From NCBI RefSeq assembly GCF_003226535.1, contig NZ_QKOB01000002.1, forward strand, positions 186,001-250,000: a stretch of 64,000 bases of DNA, in the 5' to 3' direction. The notes beneath the pieces were generated by a model that saw only the letters and a program-made list of their open reading frames with translations, had not been told where the DNA came from and made no database searches. Positions 11,390 to 55,084 of this stretch are shown here, in pieces. Every line of letters starts with the position of its first letter. The stretch's first letter is position 1. Origin of the DNA: Meiothermus sp. Pnk-1 (GTDB lineage: Bacteria; Deinococcota; Deinococci; Deinococcales; Thermaceae). A program made the translations under genes and the position numbers.

Positions 11390-11459
11390 ATGGGCCGGTC
11401 TCGAAAACCGGTATATCCCTTACGGGGTATCGCGGGTTCGAATCCCGCCCCCTCCGCCA
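11368..11459 (+). tRNA. tRNA-Ser (anticodon CGA), likely prophage attachment site
   Basis: A 92-nt class II tRNA. Acceptor GGAGGGG pairs with CCCCTCC; the anticodon stem CCGGT/ACCGG encloses the loop CTCGAAA, giving CGA. A long variable arm (TATCCC...GGGGTA) and a T-arm GCGGG-TTCGAAT-CCCGC follow, and CCA is encoded. Its 5' end overlaps the last 22 nt of tilS-tadA. A phage integrase starts its 3' end 79 bp downstream, the classic arrangement for integration at a tRNA 3' half. The second attachment copy is not in the window, so the exact core is unknown. Confidence 0.95.
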
Positions 11460-11466
11460 GCAACGC

Positions 11467-11537: not shown

Positions 11538-12758
11538 TCATGGCTCCTTTTCGGGGGACGGGGTGGGCGGCTCTATAGCCATTCGTAGCATTCCCTCGCG
11601 CAAGTCCTCATCGTGTACCTTTTGGTAGATCTCGATGGAGACCCTAGGATCGGAATGCCCCCCTGCGACCGCGAGATCCTTGGGGGTGCGGAAGACCCGG
11701 GCGGCTTGGGTGAACCAGCTATGCCGCAAGTCATGTATGCGGAACTTGAGCAGTCTCTGCTTACGGGGATCGGAGTCCTCGAGCTTCCCGAATACCTCTT
11801 TGCGTACCCGGTCCCATATTTCGTTGATGGTCACCGGAGAGGTGGGCTTGCCCTTTCGGTTGGGAAAAAGCCAGCCCTGATCGGGGTAGCCTAAGCGTTT
11901 GCGTTCTTCCTCGAGTTGCCCCAGCCACCAGGTCACGATCTCAGCCCCAGCCGCTGGTAGGTACAGAGTGCGGCGCCCGGCCTTGGTCTTGAGCCGTTCT
12001 TTTACGGTAGGTTTGCCGTCCTCCACCACCACCTGGCGCCGGATGCGCACCTCCAGGTATTCTTTACCGGTATCCGGGTCCATCACAAAAGTGAGGTCCT
12101 CTTTGCGCAAGCCCAGCCCCTCTCCCCGCCGCAAGCCCAGGGCCAGATAGAGATAAAACAGGGCAAATAGCCGCCTTCGCTTGAGTTCGGCCAAAAGCGG
12201 TTCGCGGAACTCTGGTGGCAAAGCTTGCGAAACCGGCTCCCGGCGCATTCCCGGCTTGCGGGCTAATCGAGCCGGGTTGTGGGTGACCCCGGTCTGTTTG
12301 CGGTTCCTGAGAGCCCAGTCCAAACTCATGGCGATGAGGTTATGGCACTGCCGCACCGTGCTGGCTGAGCGGCGCTGGATCAAATCAAAGTAAAACCCCT
12401 CTAAGTGGTGCGGCTCGAGTTTGCGCAGGGGGATATGTCCTAAGGCTGCCGTGATGTGGCTCAGCAATTGCCGGTCTTTTTCTTTGGTGTTCTGCTGCAG
12501 TTCGGGATCGGCTTGGCGCAGTTTTACGAAGCGCTCGAGCCATTCTCCGAGAGTGACTTCCTCGCCCAGGGGCAGGGTGCCGGCCAAGCGCTCGGTGCGC
12601 AACCGGTCCATCTGAGCTACCACCTCGGCTTTGGTCTTGCCGTATACGCTCACCCTTCGCTGTTTGCCATCTACCATGCCTAGGGTGAGCCTTCCCTCCC
12701 AACGCCCATCCGGGCGCCTGCGAATCGAGCCCTCCCCATTAGAGCGAGCCCGGCCCAT
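11538..12758 (-). CDS. int: phage integrase, tyrosine recombinase family
   Basis: A 406-residue tyrosine recombinase. Residues 1-60 form an arm-binding domain (NGEGSIRRRPDGRWEGRLTL); residues 65-165 are the SAM-like core-binding domain. The catalytic domain shows all active-site residues: Arg in LGLRRGEGLGLR, Lys in KTKAGRRTLYLP, HDLRHSW, GGHSD and the nucleophile Tyr in SIEIYQKV. It would integrate and excise the prophage at the neighbouring tRNA-Ser gene. An AGGAG ribosome site lies 5 nt before the ATG, and only 2 nt separate it from the repressor gene upstream, so the two are probably co-transcribed in the lysogen. Confidence 0.95.
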   Translation of the reverse strand: MGRARSNGEGSIRRRPDGRWEGRLTLGMVDGKQRRVSVYGKTKAEVVAQMDRLRTERLAGTLPLGEEVTLGEWLERFVKLRQADPELQQNTKEKDRQLLSHITAALGHIPLRKLEPHHLEGFYFDLIQRRSASTVRQCHNLIAMSLDWALRNRKQTGVTHNPARLARKPGMRREPVSQALPPEFREPLLAELKRRRLFALFYLYLALGLRRGEGLGLRKEDLTFVMDPDTGKEYLEVRIRRQVVVEDGKPTVKERLKTKAGRRTLYLPAAGAEIVTWWLGQLEEERKRLGYPDQGWLFPNRKGKPTSPVTINEIWDRVRKEVFGKLEDSDPRKQRLLKFRIHDLRHSWFTQAARVFRTPKDLAVAGGHSDPRVSIEIYQKVHDEDLREGMLRMAIEPPTPSPEKEP

Positions 12759-24609: not shown

Positions 24610-25559
24610 GGCCCGCGGGCGAAATCGAAAAGGGTTAAGCTCCGGGTGACGTTGCTCCAGATCGCCTCGAAGCGGGGGACTTTAGCTAGAGCCGCCCCCT
24701 CGCCGCGCAACATTGAACCGCGAATCCGCCCAGCGGCATGGGATGCGGTGGGGATGACGATCTTGTGCCATCCGGCATCCTCCAAGGGCTTGTAGATGGG
24801 GTGGTCGTAGCCAGACAACACTGCCTTGCCCTGGATATTGAGCAAAAGCTGCACCAGGGCTTGGTGGTGCTCGTCGTCGGCTTCGTGGGCGTAGCCGCCA
24901 TGATTTCTCGTTTGAAGCACATACGGCGGGTCAATGTAAAATAAAGTATTTGGCGTGTCCCAGTAGCGGATGCACTCCAGGGCGTCTATGGAGTCTATTT
25001 GCACCCGCATGAGCCGGTCGTGCCAGGAGGCGAGGAGCTTGAGCCGCCCCCGCCATCTATTTGTTGTTTCAGCCATGCCCCGATTCGATGCGGTGAGCAC
25101 CCGGCTCCAATTGCCCTCGCAGGTCGCTTCGCCACTGAATCCCTGGTTCTGCGCCACAAAGAACGCCCAGGCCCGGTCCAGGTCGGAAGCGCTGGGATCT
25201 TGCAGGATCGCCAGAGCCCGGCGGAACTCCGCCCTGGAGTAGGGGGTCCAGACAAGGCGGTGGGCCAATTCCTCGAATTTGGCCCGGTCCTGCAGCACCC
25301 GGAATAGGGTGACGATGCGGTCGTCGAGGTCGTTGAGGACCTCGACCGGATAGGGCTCGGTCAGGTGCCAGAACACCGAGGCCGCCCCGGCGTAGGGTTC
25401 GACGTAGGTGGTGGCCTTGGGGAGCAAAGGGATGATGCGCTGAGCTAGATTCCCCTTGCCGCCGAACCATCGGAAAGGGGCCATCGCTCGGCTAGGCGGA
25501 GGGATCGCTTCGAGTATTTCGTCTATAGAGATAGCGCTTTCTTCCATGTTATGCCTCAA
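24606..25559 (-). CDS. dam: DNA adenine methylase, D12 class (Dam-like)
   Basis: A 317-residue alpha-class N6-adenine methyltransferase. The SAM motif is FRWFGGKGNLAQRI (F-x-G-x-K), followed by YVEPYAGAASVFWHL (motif I region), a helical target-recognition part and the catalytic LFYIDPPYVLQ. FDFARGP closes the fold. It may protect phage DNA from host restriction or mark it. Recognition sequence unknown; GATC is the common one for the family. It overlaps the IscB fusion stop by 4 bp, in a leftward accessory cluster. Confidence 0.92.
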   Translation of the reverse strand: MRHNMEESAISIDEILEAIPPPSRAMAPFRWFGGKGNLAQRIIPLLPKATTYVEPYAGAASVFWHLTEPYPVEVLNDLDDRIVTLFRVLQDRAKFEELAHRLVWTPYSRAEFRRALAILQDPSASDLDRAWAFFVAQNQGFSGEATCEGNWSRVLTASNRGMAETTNRWRGRLKLLASWHDRLMRVQIDSIDALECIRYWDTPNTLFYIDPPYVLQTRNHGGYAHEADDEHHQALVQLLLNIQGKAVLSGYDHPIYKPLEDAGWHKIVIPTASHAAGRIRGSMLRGEGAALAKVPRFEAIWSNVTRSLTLFDFARGP

Positions 25560-26512
25560 TATCCCTCTGCATTACCCGACTCCTTTTTGCGGAAATACTG
25601 AGCATACATCCGCTCCCACTCATCGAGCGGGACGAACCGCTGGCCGTCGTCGGTCCATTCCCACCACCCCTCAACCGCTAACGCCAGGTCGCGCAGCTTC
25701 CGAACCGTATCCAGGGCTATAGGCCCCATCCCCCACTGCAAAGGTTGGGGATATTGCTGAATGGCTTTCCATAGCGCCACTTCTGTTCCGCTCATCCATC
25801 CTGCGGCCCAGTGGTCCTCAGAGGCTTCGGACATAAGTTCAAACAGATAGTCCATCGCCGCTTCTCTAAGGATGCGCTGCCTTTCCTCTTCGAGGGGCAC
25901 ATTCTCCTTCCCGCAGTAAGCGCACCGGCGCCCGAACTTCTCCAGCAGATACTCCCGGACCTCATAGCCGTAAAGTTCGCCCCGCTGGTATTCGACGCCG
26001 CTGATCTCAGGATTCTGGAGCGCCTGCGTATCGAAGCGAACCAACTCCATCGAAATGGCTTCGACGGGGCAGAGACGAAGCAGCCGTTTGACCCAGGTCT
26101 CGATGTTGGCTACCCGACTTGCCAGGGAGGGCGGGAGCCACCCGGACGGGCGGCGTCGGTTGTTAAAGCGGGCCTTGCGGTAGCGAGTCTTCCTGCTCCT
26201 TCGTGCCCTGCGAAGCTGCCGCCGGGCCAGAAGTCGCTCACGGATCTGTTGGCCCCGATGAGTCAGTTCTGCCGCCCACACGACCCGACCAGTAACCTCG
26301 TTGACAACGGCAATTCCCGTCACCTTGGAGCCGGGGTCAATCTTGACGCGATGGGCATGAGTGGTAGAGTCGGCAACCCTCCGCTCCTTCAGAATGATGG
26401 TGAACGGATACCTACGGAACACAGCCGCTTTCCCTGCCTTCAAGAGCTTCCGTGCCCTGGCAGGGTGGCAGGGATCAAGCGGCTTTCGATTGCTGTCAAG
26501 CACAAACACCAT
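25556..26512 (-). CDS. iscB: truncated IscB fused in frame to a phage protein C-terminus
   Basis: Residues 1-208 are IscB: MVFVLDSNRKPLDPCHPARARKLL (PLMP-type start), RuvC-I KIDPGSKVTGIAVV with its Asp, an Arg-rich bridge helix (RRQLRRARRSRKTRYRKARF), RuvC-II AISMELVRFD with its Glu, and the beginning of the HNH domain, CAYCGKENVPLE. There the homology stops; the HNH catalytic His, second zinc pair and RuvC-III are missing. The remaining 110 residues (LMSEASEDHWAAGWMSG, VEGWWEWTDDG) look like the C-terminus of an ordinary phage protein. IscB proteins are omega-RNA-guided nickases/nucleases and Cas9 ancestors; this copy should not cut. Start ATG 26512 follows the omega-RNA; a longer frame to 26719 runs through it. 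Confidence 0.85.
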   Translation of the reverse strand: MVFVLDSNRKPLDPCHPARARKLLKAGKAAVFRRYPFTIILKERRVADSTTHAHRVKIDPGSKVTGIAVVNEVTGRVVWAAELTHRGQQIRERLLARRQLRRARRSRKTRYRKARFNNRRRPSGWLPPSLASRVANIETWVKRLLRLCPVEAISMELVRFDTQALQNPEISGVEYQRGELYGYEVREYLLEKFGRRCAYCGKENVPLEEERQRILREAAMDYLFELMSEASEDHWAAGWMSGTEVALWKAIQQYPQPLQWGMGPIALDTVRKLRDLALAVEGWWEWTDDGQRFVPLDEWERMYAQYFRKKESGNAEGY

Positions 26513-26764
26513 ACCAGAGCACCTCCTTACGGAGCAAACTCGCCTTTCGGCGGTAACGTTGGCCTCGCCAATGTCTGCCAGGCTTGTCACGCCGTCAACC
26601 TTCGCCCTGTACCCCACACAGGACAGCATGATCGACGACGGCAGTTGCCACAGGCTGGCCTCGCACCTGTGGGTGCCATGACCCGGCAAACGTAGCCCCA
26701 AAGGGCTTAGGCTGGTCACGAACGAGGGCTACAAGCCCCCGCCTTCAGGCGTGGGGTTCGTGAC
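25889..26764 (-). mobile_element. remnant of an IS200/IS605-type element carrying iscB
   Basis: The end at 26734-26764 carries a 31-nt hairpin segment matching 24 of 31 positions of the TnpB element end at 55070-55100, including a compensated stem pair. The other end is lost: IscB coding sequence stops at about 25889, joined to unrelated phage coding sequence. No tnpA is present. Confidence 0.6.
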
Positions 26765-44763: not shown

Positions 44764-45378
44764 CTATGCGCGGCCATCGAGTGGGCAGAGGTTAGCCAGC
44801 TCGAGGGCGGCGCTAGCCCCTCCCTGCGGCTTTAGCCGCTCGGCTACGGGGTTGGCGGGGCGGGCCGGGCGATTGATGGGCCGCACCCCGGTCAGCAGCA
44901 GCGAAAGCCTGGGGCGGGTGGGCTCCTGCGCGGTCATGCGCTTGGTAGCAGCGGAATCGGGTACTACGATCCAATGCCGGTTCTGGTAAAAATCGCTATA
45001 GGCCATCTCGATGAGCGGTTGGCGGTTGCGGGTGCGGCGGGAGCGCTCGTCGAAGTAGTAGGTCAGAAAGGCCCGCAGATCGTCGTGAATCTCCTGGGCG
45101 CTATAGGACACCCCGTTGATAGTTCGGCCCCGGTTGCCGAAGGTTACCTCCAGGCGAAAGCGGGGGGTGGAGAGCCCGGCGGTATCCACGATTACCCCGT
45201 ACTTGCCGGTCTGGGGATGGGGGGGAACCTCGAGCGACTGCACCCGGCCCGGGACTTCCTCGGTGAAGCTCTGCACCCCGATGGGAAATACCCACATCCC
45301 CTTGGCCCCCAACCTCGAAGCGGGGCAGGGGTGGAGTCGGCCATCGGGCTCGAGCAGGCGCAGCAATATATCGCCCAT
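44764..45378 (-). CDS. phage structural protein, unknown
   Basis: A 204-residue protein. MGDILLRLLEPDGRLHP start, beta-rich middle (GKYGVIVDTAGLSTPRFRLEVTFGNRGRTINGVSYSAQEIHDDLRAFLTYYFDERSRR) and PLIEMAYSDFYQNRHWIVVP, resembling tail proteins encoded between spike and gp25 genes in other phages. The start at 45378 was chosen because the longer frame runs through a terminator and the tmRNA 3' end. Confidence 0.6.
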   Translation of the reverse strand: MGDILLRLLEPDGRLHPCPASRLGAKGMWVFPIGVQSFTEEVPGRVQSLEVPPHPQTGKYGVIVDTAGLSTPRFRLEVTFGNRGRTINGVSYSAQEIHDDLRAFLTYYFDERSRRTRNRQPLIEMAYSDFYQNRHWIVVPDSAATKRMTAQEPTRPRLSLLLTGVRPINRPARPANPVAERLKPQGGASAALELANLCPLDGRA

Positions 45379-45405: not shown

Positions 45406-45431
45406 AAAAGAACCCCGCCCAAAGGGCGGGG
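45406..45431 (-). terminator. terminator of the RNA cassette
   Basis: Minus-strand CCCCGCCC-TTT-GGGCGGGG followed by TTCTTTTACC, 10 nt after the tmRNA CCA end. Confidence 0.85.
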
Positions 45432-45440
45432 GTGTGGTTG

Positions 45441-45754
45441 TGGTGGAGTCGGGGGGAGTTGCACCCCCGTCCAAGCTCCCTCCACGCGCGGCGCTATACA
45501 GGCTTTGTTTGGCACAGGAGGTTGGTTCGGTGTGGCCTGGCCCTCAGGGGCCCCCGAGTTTTGATCCCCCGGATACTACTCGGGCACTCTCCGGGCGATT
45601 CCTCCTAGGCGACCATGCGAAGCATGGGGGGCAAGGAGGGGTATGGGATTACCGAAGGCTTGGCGCTTATCGGTTTGCCCGTTGGTAACGCAGCCACGGG
45701 CGCTGCGGCCTGCTCCGCGCGGTTTTGGAAGCCTGTCGAACCTGGACCGACCCC
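45441..45754 (-). ncRNA. ssrA: phage-encoded tmRNA (ssrA) with a 19-residue tag
   Basis: A 314-nt tmRNA. The 5' end GGGGTCGGTCCAGGTTCGAC carries the GG-TTCGAC signature, and GGGGTCG pairs with CGACTCC next to the 3' ACCA. T-arm GGGGG-TGCAACT-CCCCC is present with one loop change. A PK1-like stem GCCCGT/ACGGGC is followed by AAACCGATAAGC and the resume codon GCC at 45664-45662, as in the Thermus context ATAACT-GCC. The tag reads AKPSVIPYPSLPPMLRMVA and stops at TAG (45605). tmRNA with SmpB frees stalled ribosomes. It lies between baseplate genes, in a cassette with a tRNA, a promoter (46075) and a terminator. Confidence 0.85.
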
Positions 45755-45833: not shown

Positions 45834-45908
45834 TGGTTGCGGGGCTGGGAGTCGAACCCAGCGTCTCGTGGTTATGAGCCACGCGGCTACCCGGTTGCCT
45901 TCCCCGCA
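45834..45908 (-). tRNA. tRNA with CAT anticodon (tRNA-Met or tRNA-Ile2), phage-encoded
   Basis: Acceptor TGCGGGG/CCCCGCA, D-stem GGC/GCC, anticodon stem CGTGG/CCACG with loop CTCATAA (anticodon CAT), T-arm CTGGG-TTCGACT-CCCAG, and encoded CCA. The first pair T-A and the lack of GGG/CCC in the anticodon stem argue against an initiator. CAT could be elongator Met or, if lysidylated by TilS, Ile2. Confidence 0.9.
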
Positions 45909-45969: not shown

Positions 45970-46044
45970 GTTCGGGTGCGGGGATAGAACCCGCGGCGTC
46001 CCGTTTCCGAGATACCCCCTCGGCGGGGTAGTGCTAGACCGAAC
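45970..46044 (-). tRNA. degenerate tRNA-like element, identity unassigned
   Basis: GTTCGGT pairs with CCCGAAC over six of seven positions and a T-arm GCGGG-TTCTATC-CCCGC is present, but position 57 is T and one extra base separates the T-arm from the acceptor. The middle can fold as CCGAG-GGGGTAT-CTCGG, which lacks U33. It is first in the RNA cassette. It may be a decayed tRNA or a divergent phage one. Confidence 0.35.
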
Positions 46045-46074
46045 GCGGCGGCGCTAGTTCCACCGCGTGGGGTT

Positions 46075-46104: not shown

Positions 46105-47094
46105 CTATTTAGCCTTGACCTTGCTCGAGCCCGACTTGATGGTTCCGCTGAGCACCACCGGGACCGGGTTGGGGACGTTCTGGTTGACCCAAAAGGTCCC
46201 TGGGGGCACCGTCACCTCAACCGTATCCCCCAAGCGGGCTACCCCCTGCGAGGCCCCTTCCCCGAGTTCCACCTGGGCCGCCTCGATCACGATTTTGACC
46301 GGGTTTTCCTGCAGCTTGATGCGGGCTCCCCCCGCGGCCTCGAGCACGATTGCGCTGTCCGCTCCGGCGTTGCCCGGGGTGGTGATATGGCCGTCACGGT
46401 CGCGGCCTTTCTCGTCGTCGTCGAATAGGCGCAGGGTGTGCCCGCGCGGGCTGGAAAGAAAGAAGCTGCCATCCGCGCTGATCCTGACCTCAGCCCCGCT
46501 CGAGTGCTTGAGCACGATGTCTACCGGAGGTTCGGCCTGAAAGGGATAATCCACCCGCTGGCTCTCAAACCCGCTGCCCCCCGCCTTCTTGCGGCGCACC
46601 TTGCGGGGAGTCTTGGCGGCGCGCAGGCTGGGGTTTCCGGGGGCGCCGTCCTTGCGGGTGGTCACCTTGAGCAGCGTGCCATCGGGCCAAACCGTCTCCT
46701 GGGTGCCATCCCCGTGGGTGATCTGGTAGAAGTCGCTGATGTGCTGCCAGACCTCGGCGTAGGGATCCTTGCGCCAAAGCTCCTCGGGGGCGGCGTGGCG
46801 TAAGTCGTCGGGGATCGAGCCTAGCCAGAAACCCGACTCCCCGTCGTTTTCGGTGAAGGCCACCAGGCCCCAATCCCCCACCCGGGGGAGGCTATAGCGC
46901 CCCGCGCTAGGCCCCGCCCCTGGGGTGAGCATCCGCACCCGGAAGCGGGGGGCCTCATCGGTCCCCCCCATCATCATCAGGTTGGAGAGCAGCACGCTGA
47001 GGGTGGCCGCGTAGGGGGCGGTATCGGTGGGGGAGTCCTGGGCGGTGCCGGGGTGGATGGCGATGACCTGGGCTAGGTGGATACCTTTGAGCAT
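46105..47094 (-). CDS. baseplate spike / assembly protein V (gpV-like)
   Basis: A 329-residue protein. The N-terminal OB-like part has FRVRMLTPGAGPSAGRYSLPRVGDWGLVAFTENDGESGFWLGSIPDD, the pattern of gpV/gp5 (P-x-x-G-x-x-V-x-VxF-x-x-G-x-x-xx-Pv-x-LG). A basic linker follows, then repeats of the triple-beta helix type (GAEVRISADGSFFLSSPRGHTLRLFDDD; GARIKLQENPVKIVIEAAQVELGEGA). It forms the membrane-piercing spike under the hub. Confidence 0.82.
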   Translation of the reverse strand: MLKGIHLAQVIAIHPGTAQDSPTDTAPYAATLSVLLSNLMMMGGTDEAPRFRVRMLTPGAGPSAGRYSLPRVGDWGLVAFTENDGESGFWLGSIPDDLRHAAPEELWRKDPYAEVWQHISDFYQITHGDGTQETVWPDGTLLKVTTRKDGAPGNPSLRAAKTPRKVRRKKAGGSGFESQRVDYPFQAEPPVDIVLKHSSGAEVRISADGSFFLSSPRGHTLRLFDDDEKGRDRDGHITTPGNAGADSAIVLEAAGGARIKLQENPVKIVIEAAQVELGEGASQGVARLGDTVEVTVPPGTFWVNQNVPNPVPVVLSGTIKSGSSKVKAK

Positions 47095-47106: not shown

Positions 47107-48267
47107 CTAGTCCCCAGCTAGCAAGAGGGGCTGCTCTGCGATAGGGGTGAGCCGCTCCCGGCTCAGCTCGAGGTAGCGGGGATTGAGTTCGATCCCCAGA
47201 TAGCGCCTCCCATGCTTGAGCGCGGCCAGTCCGGTGGTTCCTGCCCCACTGAAGGGGTCGAGCACCACGCCCCCCGCTGGACAGCCAGCTAGCACCATCA
47301 TCTCGGCCAAGCTCAGCGGCATCACCGCAAAATGGGTACCCGAAAAGGGTTGGGAGACCATACTCCACACTGAGCGCCGGTTGCGGAAGATCTTCCCCTC
47401 GGATGGCTCGAGGGTGCGCATCCGCTGGGCATAGTCCACCAGCCCGCCTTTGGTGCGATGGTGTTCCTGGCCATCCCGATAGGCCTCGGTGTAACGGTGG
47501 TGTCGGTTCCCCGGGGATTGCCCGCTGGCGGGCTCTTGTATAGCCCGCTGGTCAAAGTAATAGCGGGGCTCCTTGGCGAAGAGGAAAATGTACTCGTGCG
47601 CTTTGGTGCAGCGGTCGGTAACGCTCTCGGGTAGCGGATTGAGTTTGTGCCAGATGATATCCTGCCGTAGAATCCACCCCGCGTCTTGCAGAGCAAAAGC
47701 CACCCGCCAGGGAATGCCCAGCAGGTTTTTGGCTGGCAATGGCCGCGCCCGGGGGGCAATCTGGGGCAGGCTAAGCAAATAGCGGTTGTTACTGCCGATA
47801 TGGCCGTTGCCCCGCAGGGTGCTTTTGGCGCTTTGGGGGCCAGCGCCGGTGCCGTAGGAATCTCCCAGGTTGAGCCATAGGGTTCCTTGCGGCTTCAGCA
47901 CCCGCCGCACTTCCTCAAACACGGCGGTCAGCTTGCTCACGTATTCCTCGAGGGTGCCCTCGAGCCCGATCTGCTCATCCACGCGCACCGCCCCACAGCG
48001 CGGGCAAACCCCGGCAAACCCTTCTTGTTGATGGCCGGTGTGGGACTTGCCCCCGGCCAGGGTACTGCTGGCCAGGCCGCGCCGCCCGGGGGTGCTGTCT
48101 GGCCGATGATCGCACTCGGGGTCGCCCCCCTCCCAGCGGGCGGTACCGTAGTCGCGCAAGCCCCAATAGGGGGGGCTGGTAATGCAGCAGTCCACCGAGT
48201 TCGCGGCAAGGCGGGGCAATACCTCGAGCGCATTCCCGAGGATGAGGTGATAGGGTTGGGCCTCCAT
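47107..48267 (-). CDS. DNA (cytosine-N4/adenine-N6) methyltransferase, beta class
   Basis: A 386-residue methyltransferase. Motif IV CCITSPPYWGLRDYG is at the N-terminus (residues 28-42) and the SAM motif GVVLDPFSGAGTTGLAAL with RRYLGIELNPRYLELSRERL is at the C-terminus, i.e. beta-type order. The SPPY tetrad suits N4-cytosine or some N6-adenine enzymes. A C-x2-C pair near 85-90 (GVCPRCGAV) is extra. It sits between the spike and hub genes but has its own leaderless promoter, so it is an independent insert, likely for protection against restriction. Confidence 0.9.
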   Translation of the reverse strand: MEAQPYHLILGNALEVLPRLAANSVDCCITSPPYWGLRDYGTARWEGGDPECDHRPDSTPGRRGLASSTLAGGKSHTGHQQEGFAGVCPRCGAVRVDEQIGLEGTLEEYVSKLTAVFEEVRRVLKPQGTLWLNLGDSYGTGAGPQSAKSTLRGNGHIGSNNRYLLSLPQIAPRARPLPAKNLLGIPWRVAFALQDAGWILRQDIIWHKLNPLPESVTDRCTKAHEYIFLFAKEPRYYFDQRAIQEPASGQSPGNRHHRYTEAYRDGQEHHRTKGGLVDYAQRMRTLEPSEGKIFRNRRSVWSMVSQPFSGTHFAVMPLSLAEMMVLAGCPAGGVVLDPFSGAGTTGLAALKHGRRYLGIELNPRYLELSRERLTPIAEQPLLLAGD

Positions 48268-53809: not shown

Positions 53810-53896
53810 GGCGCGGAGACCCCTGCCTTCAGGCATGGGGTTGACGAAGTCCCTGCGATAGCAGGGGAGCGCCGCTCCTCCTTTCGCATGATATGT

Positions 53897-53902
53897 TATA
53901 CT
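53897..53902 (+). promoter_or_regulatory. -10 box of leaderless promoter for tnpB
   Basis: TATACT, TTGCTT, then ATG at 53909. Confidence 0.5.
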
Positions 53903-53908
53903 TTGCTT

Positions 53909-55084
53909 ATGCAGACCCTTACCCTCCGCTGCACTCTCAAGCCCACCCCCGAACAGGCGGCGGCGCTGGAGGCCACGGTGCGGTTGTTTGCCGAGGGCTG
54001 CAACCACGCCCTGCGGGTGGCTAAGGAGCACGGGGAGTTCCGTAGGTTCAAGCTGCACCGCCTGGTCTACCGCGACCTCCGGGCGATGGGGCTCTCGGCT
54101 AACCTCGCGGTGCAGGCGATTGCCCGTGTGGGCAAAAAGAAAGGGAGCCGGGCCAAGTTCTACCAGCCCACCTCCTGCGCCTTCGACCAGCGCACCCTGT
54201 CCTTGCGGGGCGAGGCGGTCTCGCTGACCACCGTCGCGGGTCGGATGCTCATCCCGATGAAGCTGGGCAACTACCAGCGGGGGATGTTGAAGCGGGCCAA
54301 GAGTGTGCAGGGCGGGGTGCTGACCAAAGGGCCGAGGGGCAAGTGGTACATCCACCTCTCCCTCCGGGTGGAAACCCCCACCCTGCCCCCAGGTGGCGGG
54401 AGGGTGGTGGGTGTTGATTTGGGGCAGAAGGCCCTGGCCACCCTCTCCACCGGGGTGCAGTTTTCCGGAGGTTCCCTGAAGGGGAAACGTCTGCACTACC
54501 GGGCGAAGCGGGCCGAGGTCCGATCCAAGCTGGACCGCCCTTCCGAACGCACCAGAGGCGTACAGCGCCTCTGGGAACGGCTTACGGGAAGGGAAGCCCG
54601 TTTCGTGAACCACACCCTGCATACCCTGACCAAGCGGATTGTAGACAGCCTCGACCCCGGCGACACCCTCGCCGTCGAGGACCTGAACGGGTTGCGGGGG
54701 CGCACTACCCGGCGGGGCAAGGAAGCAAGACACCTGCACCACCTGTGGCCCTACGCCCGCTTCCGCTCCCTGCTGGAGTACAAGGCCGCGCTGAGGGGGG
54801 TGCGGGTGGTGGCGGTAGACCCCCGGCACACCAGCCAGGAGTGTCCCCGCTGCGGGCATACCGCCAGGGAGAACCGTAAAAGCCAGGCCCTTTTCCGCTG
54901 CACCGCTTGCGGTTTCCAGCACAACGCCGACTGGGTGGCCGCGCACAACATCGCCTTGCGTGCAGGGCCGCAGGGGATCGTCGCCCAAAGAGCAGGCTCG
55001 ATGGGCATGGGCCGCTGTAAACCGGCCCGGATTCTGAGGGTGTCTTCTCTGCATCGTCTCCTCTCGGAAAGCCCCCGGCTTTAG
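53909..55084 (+). CDS. tnpB: RNA-guided nuclease TnpB
   Basis: A 391-residue TnpB. The N-terminal HTH/WED part begins LTLRCTLKPTPEQAAALEATVRLFAEGCNHAL. The RuvC active site is complete: Asp in VVGVDLGQKALATLS, Glu in LAVEDLNGLRGRT and Asp in HNADWVAAHNIALRA. The zinc finger is CPRCGHTA...FRCTACG. TnpB cuts DNA next to a transposon-associated motif, guided by an RNA from the element right end; here the stop codon lies inside the right-end hairpin and the guide would read from 55101. Since no transposase is present, spread would need TnpA in trans. Confidence 0.93.
   Translation: MQTLTLRCTLKPTPEQAAALEATVRLFAEGCNHALRVAKEHGEFRRFKLHRLVYRDLRAMGLSANLAVQAIARVGKKKGSRAKFYQPTSCAFDQRTLSLRGEAVSLTTVAGRMLIPMKLGNYQRGMLKRAKSVQGGVLTKGPRGKWYIHLSLRVETPTLPPGGGRVVGVDLGQKALATLSTGVQFSGGSLKGKRLHYRAKRAEVRSKLDRPSERTRGVQRLWERLTGREARFVNHTLHTLTKRIVDSLDPGDTLAVEDLNGLRGRTTRRGKEARHLHHLWPYARFRSLLEYKAALRGVRVVAVDPRHTSQECPRCGHTARENRKSQALFRCTACGFQHNADWVAAHNIALRAGPQGIVAQRAGSMGMGRCKPARILRVSSLHRLLSESPRL

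Follow-up and report, generated by a model that had tools for sequence, protein, structure and literature searches.

Viral copies of tmRNA are already known. Ten phage examples were listed in 2014 (PMC4131195), and by 2021 tmRNA had been found in 402 phages, or 2.3% of 18,146 (PMC9004378). The tmRNA of Wildcat indicates that such a gene can be the top-expressed lytic gene of its phage (PMC7474061), and the roles proposed for viral tmRNA include the upkeep of hijacked machinery and the turnover of host proteins (PMC9004378). The tmRNA described here resembles those of mycobacteriophages Bxz1 and Wildcat, Bacillus phage G and the marine phage Melnitz in that the phage likewise carries a complete gene, the host apparently supplying the other machinery. 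It differs from them in belonging to a Thermaceae prophage, as a one-piece gene between baseplate genes, and in having a tag for which no match was found. As judged by sequence comparison, its odd-looking features have precedents.

The host-type ssrA genes of the Thermaceae (tags GNTQRSYALAA and ANKPAYALAA) share with the prophage tmRNA the one-piece gene, the architecture and the AUAA context. However, they have a GG D-loop, a UUC T-loop, tags of 9–11 aa ending in ALAA and a length of ∼345–355 nt, whereas the prophage tmRNA has an AG D-loop, a UGC T-loop, a tag of 19 aa ending in MVA and a length of 314 nt. Extra tmRNAs on Thermaceae mobile elements are also seen as the second ssrA of the Thermus plasmids pTA69, pTthSNM7-6b and pTthSNM3-3c and of the plasmid-like contig G045:C107, but these copies are host-type, with a UUC T-loop (G045:C107), tags ANKPAYRLAA or ANKPAALAA and scores of 135–160 bits. 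All four lie upstream of a conserved 120-aa protein, with a toprim-domain gene also downstream on pTthSNM7-6b. Degraded tmRNA copies are present on two further T. thermophilus plasmids, and broken extra Thermus ssrA copies at G046:C13:29215-29535 and G016:C21:22564-22904; one of the latter pair lacks the T arm, and the other lacks the 5′ part and lies next to a transposase-like ORF.

A complete one-piece tmRNA gene

The window, by which we mean the whole stretch of 64,000 nucleotides analysed, had been predicted from its letters to hold a phage-encoded tmRNA at 45441-45754, with a covariance search set as the check. ARAGORN called a complete tmRNA with exactly these ends on the minus strand, and the Rfam model RF00023 matched the same interval from end to end (model positions 1–374, E 1.6e-35) with 94.5 bits, around twice the curated cut-off of 47 bits. 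That two independent finders agree on the ends counts for a real one-piece tmRNA. In addition, the minimum free energy (MFE) of the interval was below that of 100/100 dinucleotide shuffles (z = -3.1), and these three results together rule out an artefact of a GC-rich stretch. A permuted two-piece tmRNA was also rejected, as the 5′ and 3′ pieces stand in the standard order and the corresponding model, RF04321, gave 23 bits only, which is below its cut-off.

The fold agrees with this. The matching acceptor ends and the PK1-like stem of the original prediction correspond to an acceptor stem paired at 7/7 positions and a pseudoknot of 5+6 bp, and the stems of PK1, helix 5 and PK2 show exact complementarity (Table 1). 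PK1 and PK2 are clear; the region of PK3 and PK4 is shortened, and hairpins alone were recognised there. The number and size of pseudoknots differ between known tmRNAs (PMC1168896). By comparison with the host ssrA, the prophage tmRNA is shorter (314 against 354 nt) and has half the RF00023 score (94.5 against 193.4 bits). We conclude that the one-piece tmRNA at 45441-45754 is genuine and complete in structure.

Table 1. Features of the tmRNA locus and its prophage (positions in the window)
Feature	Position	Strand	Evidence or remark
attL, 62-bp repeat at tRNA-Ser 3′ end (likely)	11400..11461	+	98% copy at C2:275181-275242
Integrase	11538-12758		Adjoins attL
Next baseplate-region gene, downstream of cassette	44764..45378	-	ATG at 45378; homologues
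Intrinsic terminator	45413..45431	-	CCCCGCCC-UUU-GGGCGGGG-UUCUUUU; directly past tmRNA CCA end; strong
One-piece tmRNA gene (ssrA), 314 nt	45441..45754	-	ARAGORN; RF00023; MFE z -3.1
T arm, GGGGG-UGCAACU-CCCCC, G55	45452..45468	-	RF00023 alignment; stem inspection
Pseudoknot PK2	45553..45595	-	CCCGGA/UCCGGG + CCCGAGU/ACUCGGG (6+7 bp)
Helix 5	45601..45639	-	CCUCC/GGAGG, inner hairpin CCAUG/CAUGG; holds second tag half and stop
Tag reading frame, GCC resume codon to UAG	45605..45664	-	AKPSVIPYPSLPPMLRMVA; ARAGORN; context AUAAGC
Pseudoknot PK1	45677..45706	-	GCAGC/GCUGC + GCCCGU/ACGGGC (5+6 bp)
D-loop dinucleotide AG (not GG)	45742..45743	-	Goes with T-loop G55
Acceptor stem 5′ strand, GGGGUCG	45748..45754	-	Pairs with CGACUCC, including G3.U70
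tRNA with CAU anticodon (tRNA-Met)	45834..45908	-	ARAGORN; RF00005, 49.5 bits
Baseplate protein, upstream of cassette	46105..47094	-	tblastn to Cumys baseplate protein and phiMa_40

The prophage and its host

The host is a member of the Thermaceae with a genome of 3.5 Mb. Its own ssrA lies on another contig (C6:148017) and encodes GNTQRSYALAA, the tag that ARAGORN lists for Meiothermus silvanus; the single smpB gene lies outside both the window and the prophage. The comparison with the host gene and tag that had been proposed shows that the two genes differ, the host ssrA having GG and UUC loops.

The window carries an integrase next to a tRNA-Ser, a terminase, a major head protein, a tail sheath, a tape measure and baseplate genes, a content that indicates a contractile-tail prophage. 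Two 62-bp repeats of the tRNA-Ser end, 98% identical, lie 77.8 kb apart and are likely to be the att sites. Gene content and repeats together mark the element as a contractile-tail prophage of ∼78 kb that has integrated in tRNA-Ser. Most of its structural genes show 40–55% identity to those of the Thermus phages phiMa and Cumys and of prophages in two other Thermaceae. The tmRNA thus lies between the att repeats, amid the baseplate genes as predicted, and is distinct from the host ssrA. It cannot be an att remnant, since the tRNA-Ser att repeat is 34 kb away and the tmRNA is whole.

Two other genes in the window were noted in passing. An IscB-like ORF with an RRXRR domain (25556-26764, minus strand) has a HEARO (omega) RNA at 26553-26764, and its HNH region is apparently cut and replaced past the first HNH motif. 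A TnpB-like gene (53888-55084, plus strand; OrfB_IS605 and Cas12f1-like domains) is inserted in the tail gene cluster.

The tRNA-like domain

The tRNA-like domain comprises an acceptor stem, a T arm and a D-loop without a D-stem. The acceptor stem contains G3.U70 and is followed by A73 and an encoded CCA at 45443-45441. G3.U70, A73 and CCA together form the alanine identity set. Both loops are in a variant form, with A in the D-loop and G at position 55 of the T-loop (in tRNA terms, G18-U55 has become A-G).

The G in place of the conserved T55 had been noticed at the outset as an anomaly. The substitution is real; what does not hold is its reading as an anomaly, since G55 is widespread and goes with the D-loop A. 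Matches to the G55 T-loop pattern lie on at least 120 viral contigs. GTDB genomes add at least 119 contigs, from Patescibacteria, Elusimicrobia, Omnitrophota, Acidobacteria and Fermentithermobacillaceae among other groups, and the change of U342 to G in Caulobacter tmRNA is on record (PMC1168896). G55 tmRNAs have the D-loop AG-N-TTCGAC, whereas ordinary tmRNAs have GG-N-TTCGAC. Among the matches listed, the D-loop A accompanies G55 in 70 of 85 unique tmRNAs from GTDB genomes under a strict position rule, most of the exceptions having the AG displaced by one base, and in 83 viral tmRNAs; GG accompanies TTC in 35 bacterial and 25 viral tmRNAs of the compared sets. This association of G55 with A, and of U55 with GG, at the equivalents of E. 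coli G13 and U342, extends across phyla and phages and looks like a recurrent tertiary covariation. We found no description of the D-loop partner of G55 in the literature searched, and it may still have been described.

By this comparison, the G55 of the prophage tmRNA is a recurrent natural variant and not a defect. Decay inferred from G55 can be ruled out, given its occurrence with the D-loop A in so many viral and bacterial contigs; indeed, the presence of both changes speaks against decay, which is not expected to strike both. A search of 110 further Deinococcota genomes found no G55 T-loop, which indicates that the prophage tmRNA was not recently copied from a host-type ssrA and rules out a recent duplication of the host gene as its origin. 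The prophage tmRNA shares the two loop changes with the tmRNAs of Caulobacter, Patescibacteria, Elusimicrobia, Omnitrophota and many aquatic phages, among which long or proline-containing tags and non-ALAA ends also occur, but it has no specific sequence kinship with them. A tree built from the tRNA-like domain (TLD), helix 2 and PK1 placed it weakly, and no sampled tmRNA exceeded 61% identity to it over the conserved ends. Among phages, viral contigs, plasmids and 390 genomes, no close relative was found beyond matches to the 3′ end or the tRNA.

The resume point and the tag

PK1 lies upstream of the resume codon, which stands in the appropriate context and begins an open tag frame with a stop codon. 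The context AUAAGC|GCC, described in the original prediction as near the Thermus form, is indeed parallel to AUAACU|GGC of the host ssrA. This likeness, together with the C-terminal pattern of the tag, supports the GCC frame. Of the other two frames, one stops after five codons and the other enters PK2, so that the GCC frame fits best.

The tag given by ARAGORN, AKPSVIPYPSLPPMLRMVA, is long and proline-rich as foreseen, with 19 residues, five prolines and the C-terminus MVA. The usual tag has ten residues (PMC11915505). The idea that this length and proline content are unprecedented did not survive comparison: tags of at least 18 aa are common among bacterial G55 tmRNAs, chromosomal examples reaching 27 aa, and four bacterial G55 tmRNAs of the sampled set have at least three prolines, although a tag with five had no exact parallel among the sampled tmRNAs.

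MVA departs from the C-terminal LAA of SsrA-type ClpXP degrons and fits the looser pattern hydrophobic-small-Ala. This pattern ([LIMVF][AVTS]A) ends 0.33% of shuffled tag regions, a figure to be read with the fact that it was picked after the tag was seen. Among the sampled viral tags, 111 of 139 end in LAA, the exceptions including LVA, LTA, MAA and RMVA; the last is the end of the viral tag ANDSQFRMVA and also of the prophage tag. Chromosomal tags of the G55 class have ends such as ATA, AFA, ALA and VVA. MVA differs solely by L to M from LVA, an engineered degron variant (PMC9382460). With MVA so near to LVA, and non-LAA ends natural elsewhere, a degradable tag is the simplest reading, and AKPSVIPYPSLPPMLRMVA is probably still a degradation signal. 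The earlier suggestion that the MVA end diverts or protects the tagged products thus finds no support.

A cargo site between baseplate genes

The tmRNA forms one cassette with the tRNA-Met 79 nt upstream, and the two fill the 726 bp between the flanking baseplate genes. The product of the downstream gene is 45–49% identical to its homologues in phiMa, Cumys and the prophage of genome G006. In the latter prophage, which is the nearest, the same two genes are separated by <30 bp. At this junction phiMa has ∼2.2 kb with different genes, including two that run on the opposite strand, one of which is annotated as an ADP-ribose 1-phosphate phosphatase, and genome G042 has an insert of ∼2.5 kb. Such variation between related phages and prophages points to a cargo site, and on this comparison the baseplate-gene junction is one. 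No tmRNA was found anywhere in the genomes of five related isolated Thermus phages, or in the examined stretches of related prophages.

Several observations were made around the cassette. A DNA methylase gene (N6_N4_Mtase; 47107-48267, minus strand) separates two tail genes whose counterparts in the G006 prophage are directly adjacent, and this insertion is, by the same kind of comparison, a second cargo site adjoining that of the tmRNA. Upstream of the tRNA-Met, at 45987-46062 on the minus strand, a tRNA-like fold with acceptor-like and T-arm-like stems was seen by eye, with no program call; it is possibly a tRNA relic. A paralogue of the upstream baseplate protein, 57% identical, lies on the opposite strand at C2:262804-263811, inside the att interval and with no other tail genes surrounding it.

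DISCUSSION

We think it likely that the locus is a working phage tmRNA which uses host SmpB and AlaRS, and whose tag would most likely still be a degradation signal. Transcribed and processed during phage growth, as cargo with the tRNA-Met and with its own terminator, it would receive alanine from the host AlaRS by way of G3.U70, and would enter stalled ribosomes once host SmpB and EF-Tu had bound to it. Translation would resume at GCC, adding Ala and AKPSVIPYPSLPPMLRMVA, with release at UAG. The phage tmRNA may thereby supplement host ribosome rescue when broken mRNAs abound, and its hydrophobic-small-Ala end would most likely route the products to Clp-type (or Lon/FtsH) proteolysis. Counting for this reading are the intact acceptor stem, G3.U70, CCA, PK1, PK2, helix 5 and resume context, the terminator directly after the CCA and the one host SmpB that could be shared. 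Counting against it are half the score of the host ssrA, the shortened PK3/PK4 region, the broken ssrA copies elsewhere in the Thermaceae, the lack of a relative among the sequences searched and a five-proline tag with no exact parallel.

These same points could suggest a non-functional ssrA copy that was acquired by the phage and is drifting. The low covariance score, the reduced PK3/PK4 region, the missing conserved relatives and the broken copies of G016:C21 and G046:C13 fit such a passenger, but the essential elements are all intact, the A and G changes in the D- and T-loops are paired, the tag end is degron-like, the terminator is tight and an intact tRNA stands alongside; we consider drift unlikely. 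A role as a decoy, in which the RNA would inhibit host trans-translation by binding SmpB or ribosomes with no productive tagging, has a model in mycobacteriophage DS6A, for whose TLD-only tmRNA an inhibitor role was proposed and where a TLD-like molecule resembling it strongly inhibits tmRNA (PMC4131195). The TLD of the prophage tmRNA does differ from that of the host. The prophage tmRNA, however, retains its mRNA-like part together with PK1, the resume context and an open tag frame that ends in a stop codon, none of which a decoy needs, and the chance that it is one seems small.

There is a similarly slim prospect that the tag has been re-coded so that host ClpXP refuses it, the rescued products being handled by another protease or stabilised. 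A tag ending in MVA and not LAA, with five prolines in 19 aa, when most sampled viral tags keep LAA, would be in keeping with this, and in Mollicutes the tag ends can match Lon instead (PMC9382460). Yet MVA is like the variant LVA, and ATA, AFA, ALA, VVA and RMVA are natural ends in other tmRNAs; nor was a phage protease or adaptor identified for such a tag. That the RNA works and the tag serves something other than ClpXP, be it another protease, stabilisation or aggregation, is therefore very unlikely.

Phage tmRNAs now number in the hundreds and their role is almost untested. The present lysogen has two ssrA genes with entirely different tags, so that the tags of the two RNAs could be separated by mass spectrometry in one cell. 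With tags that can be distinguished in this way, the fate of stalled products under a phage tmRNA could be tested directly, and in a thermophile that is a relative of the well-studied Thermus.
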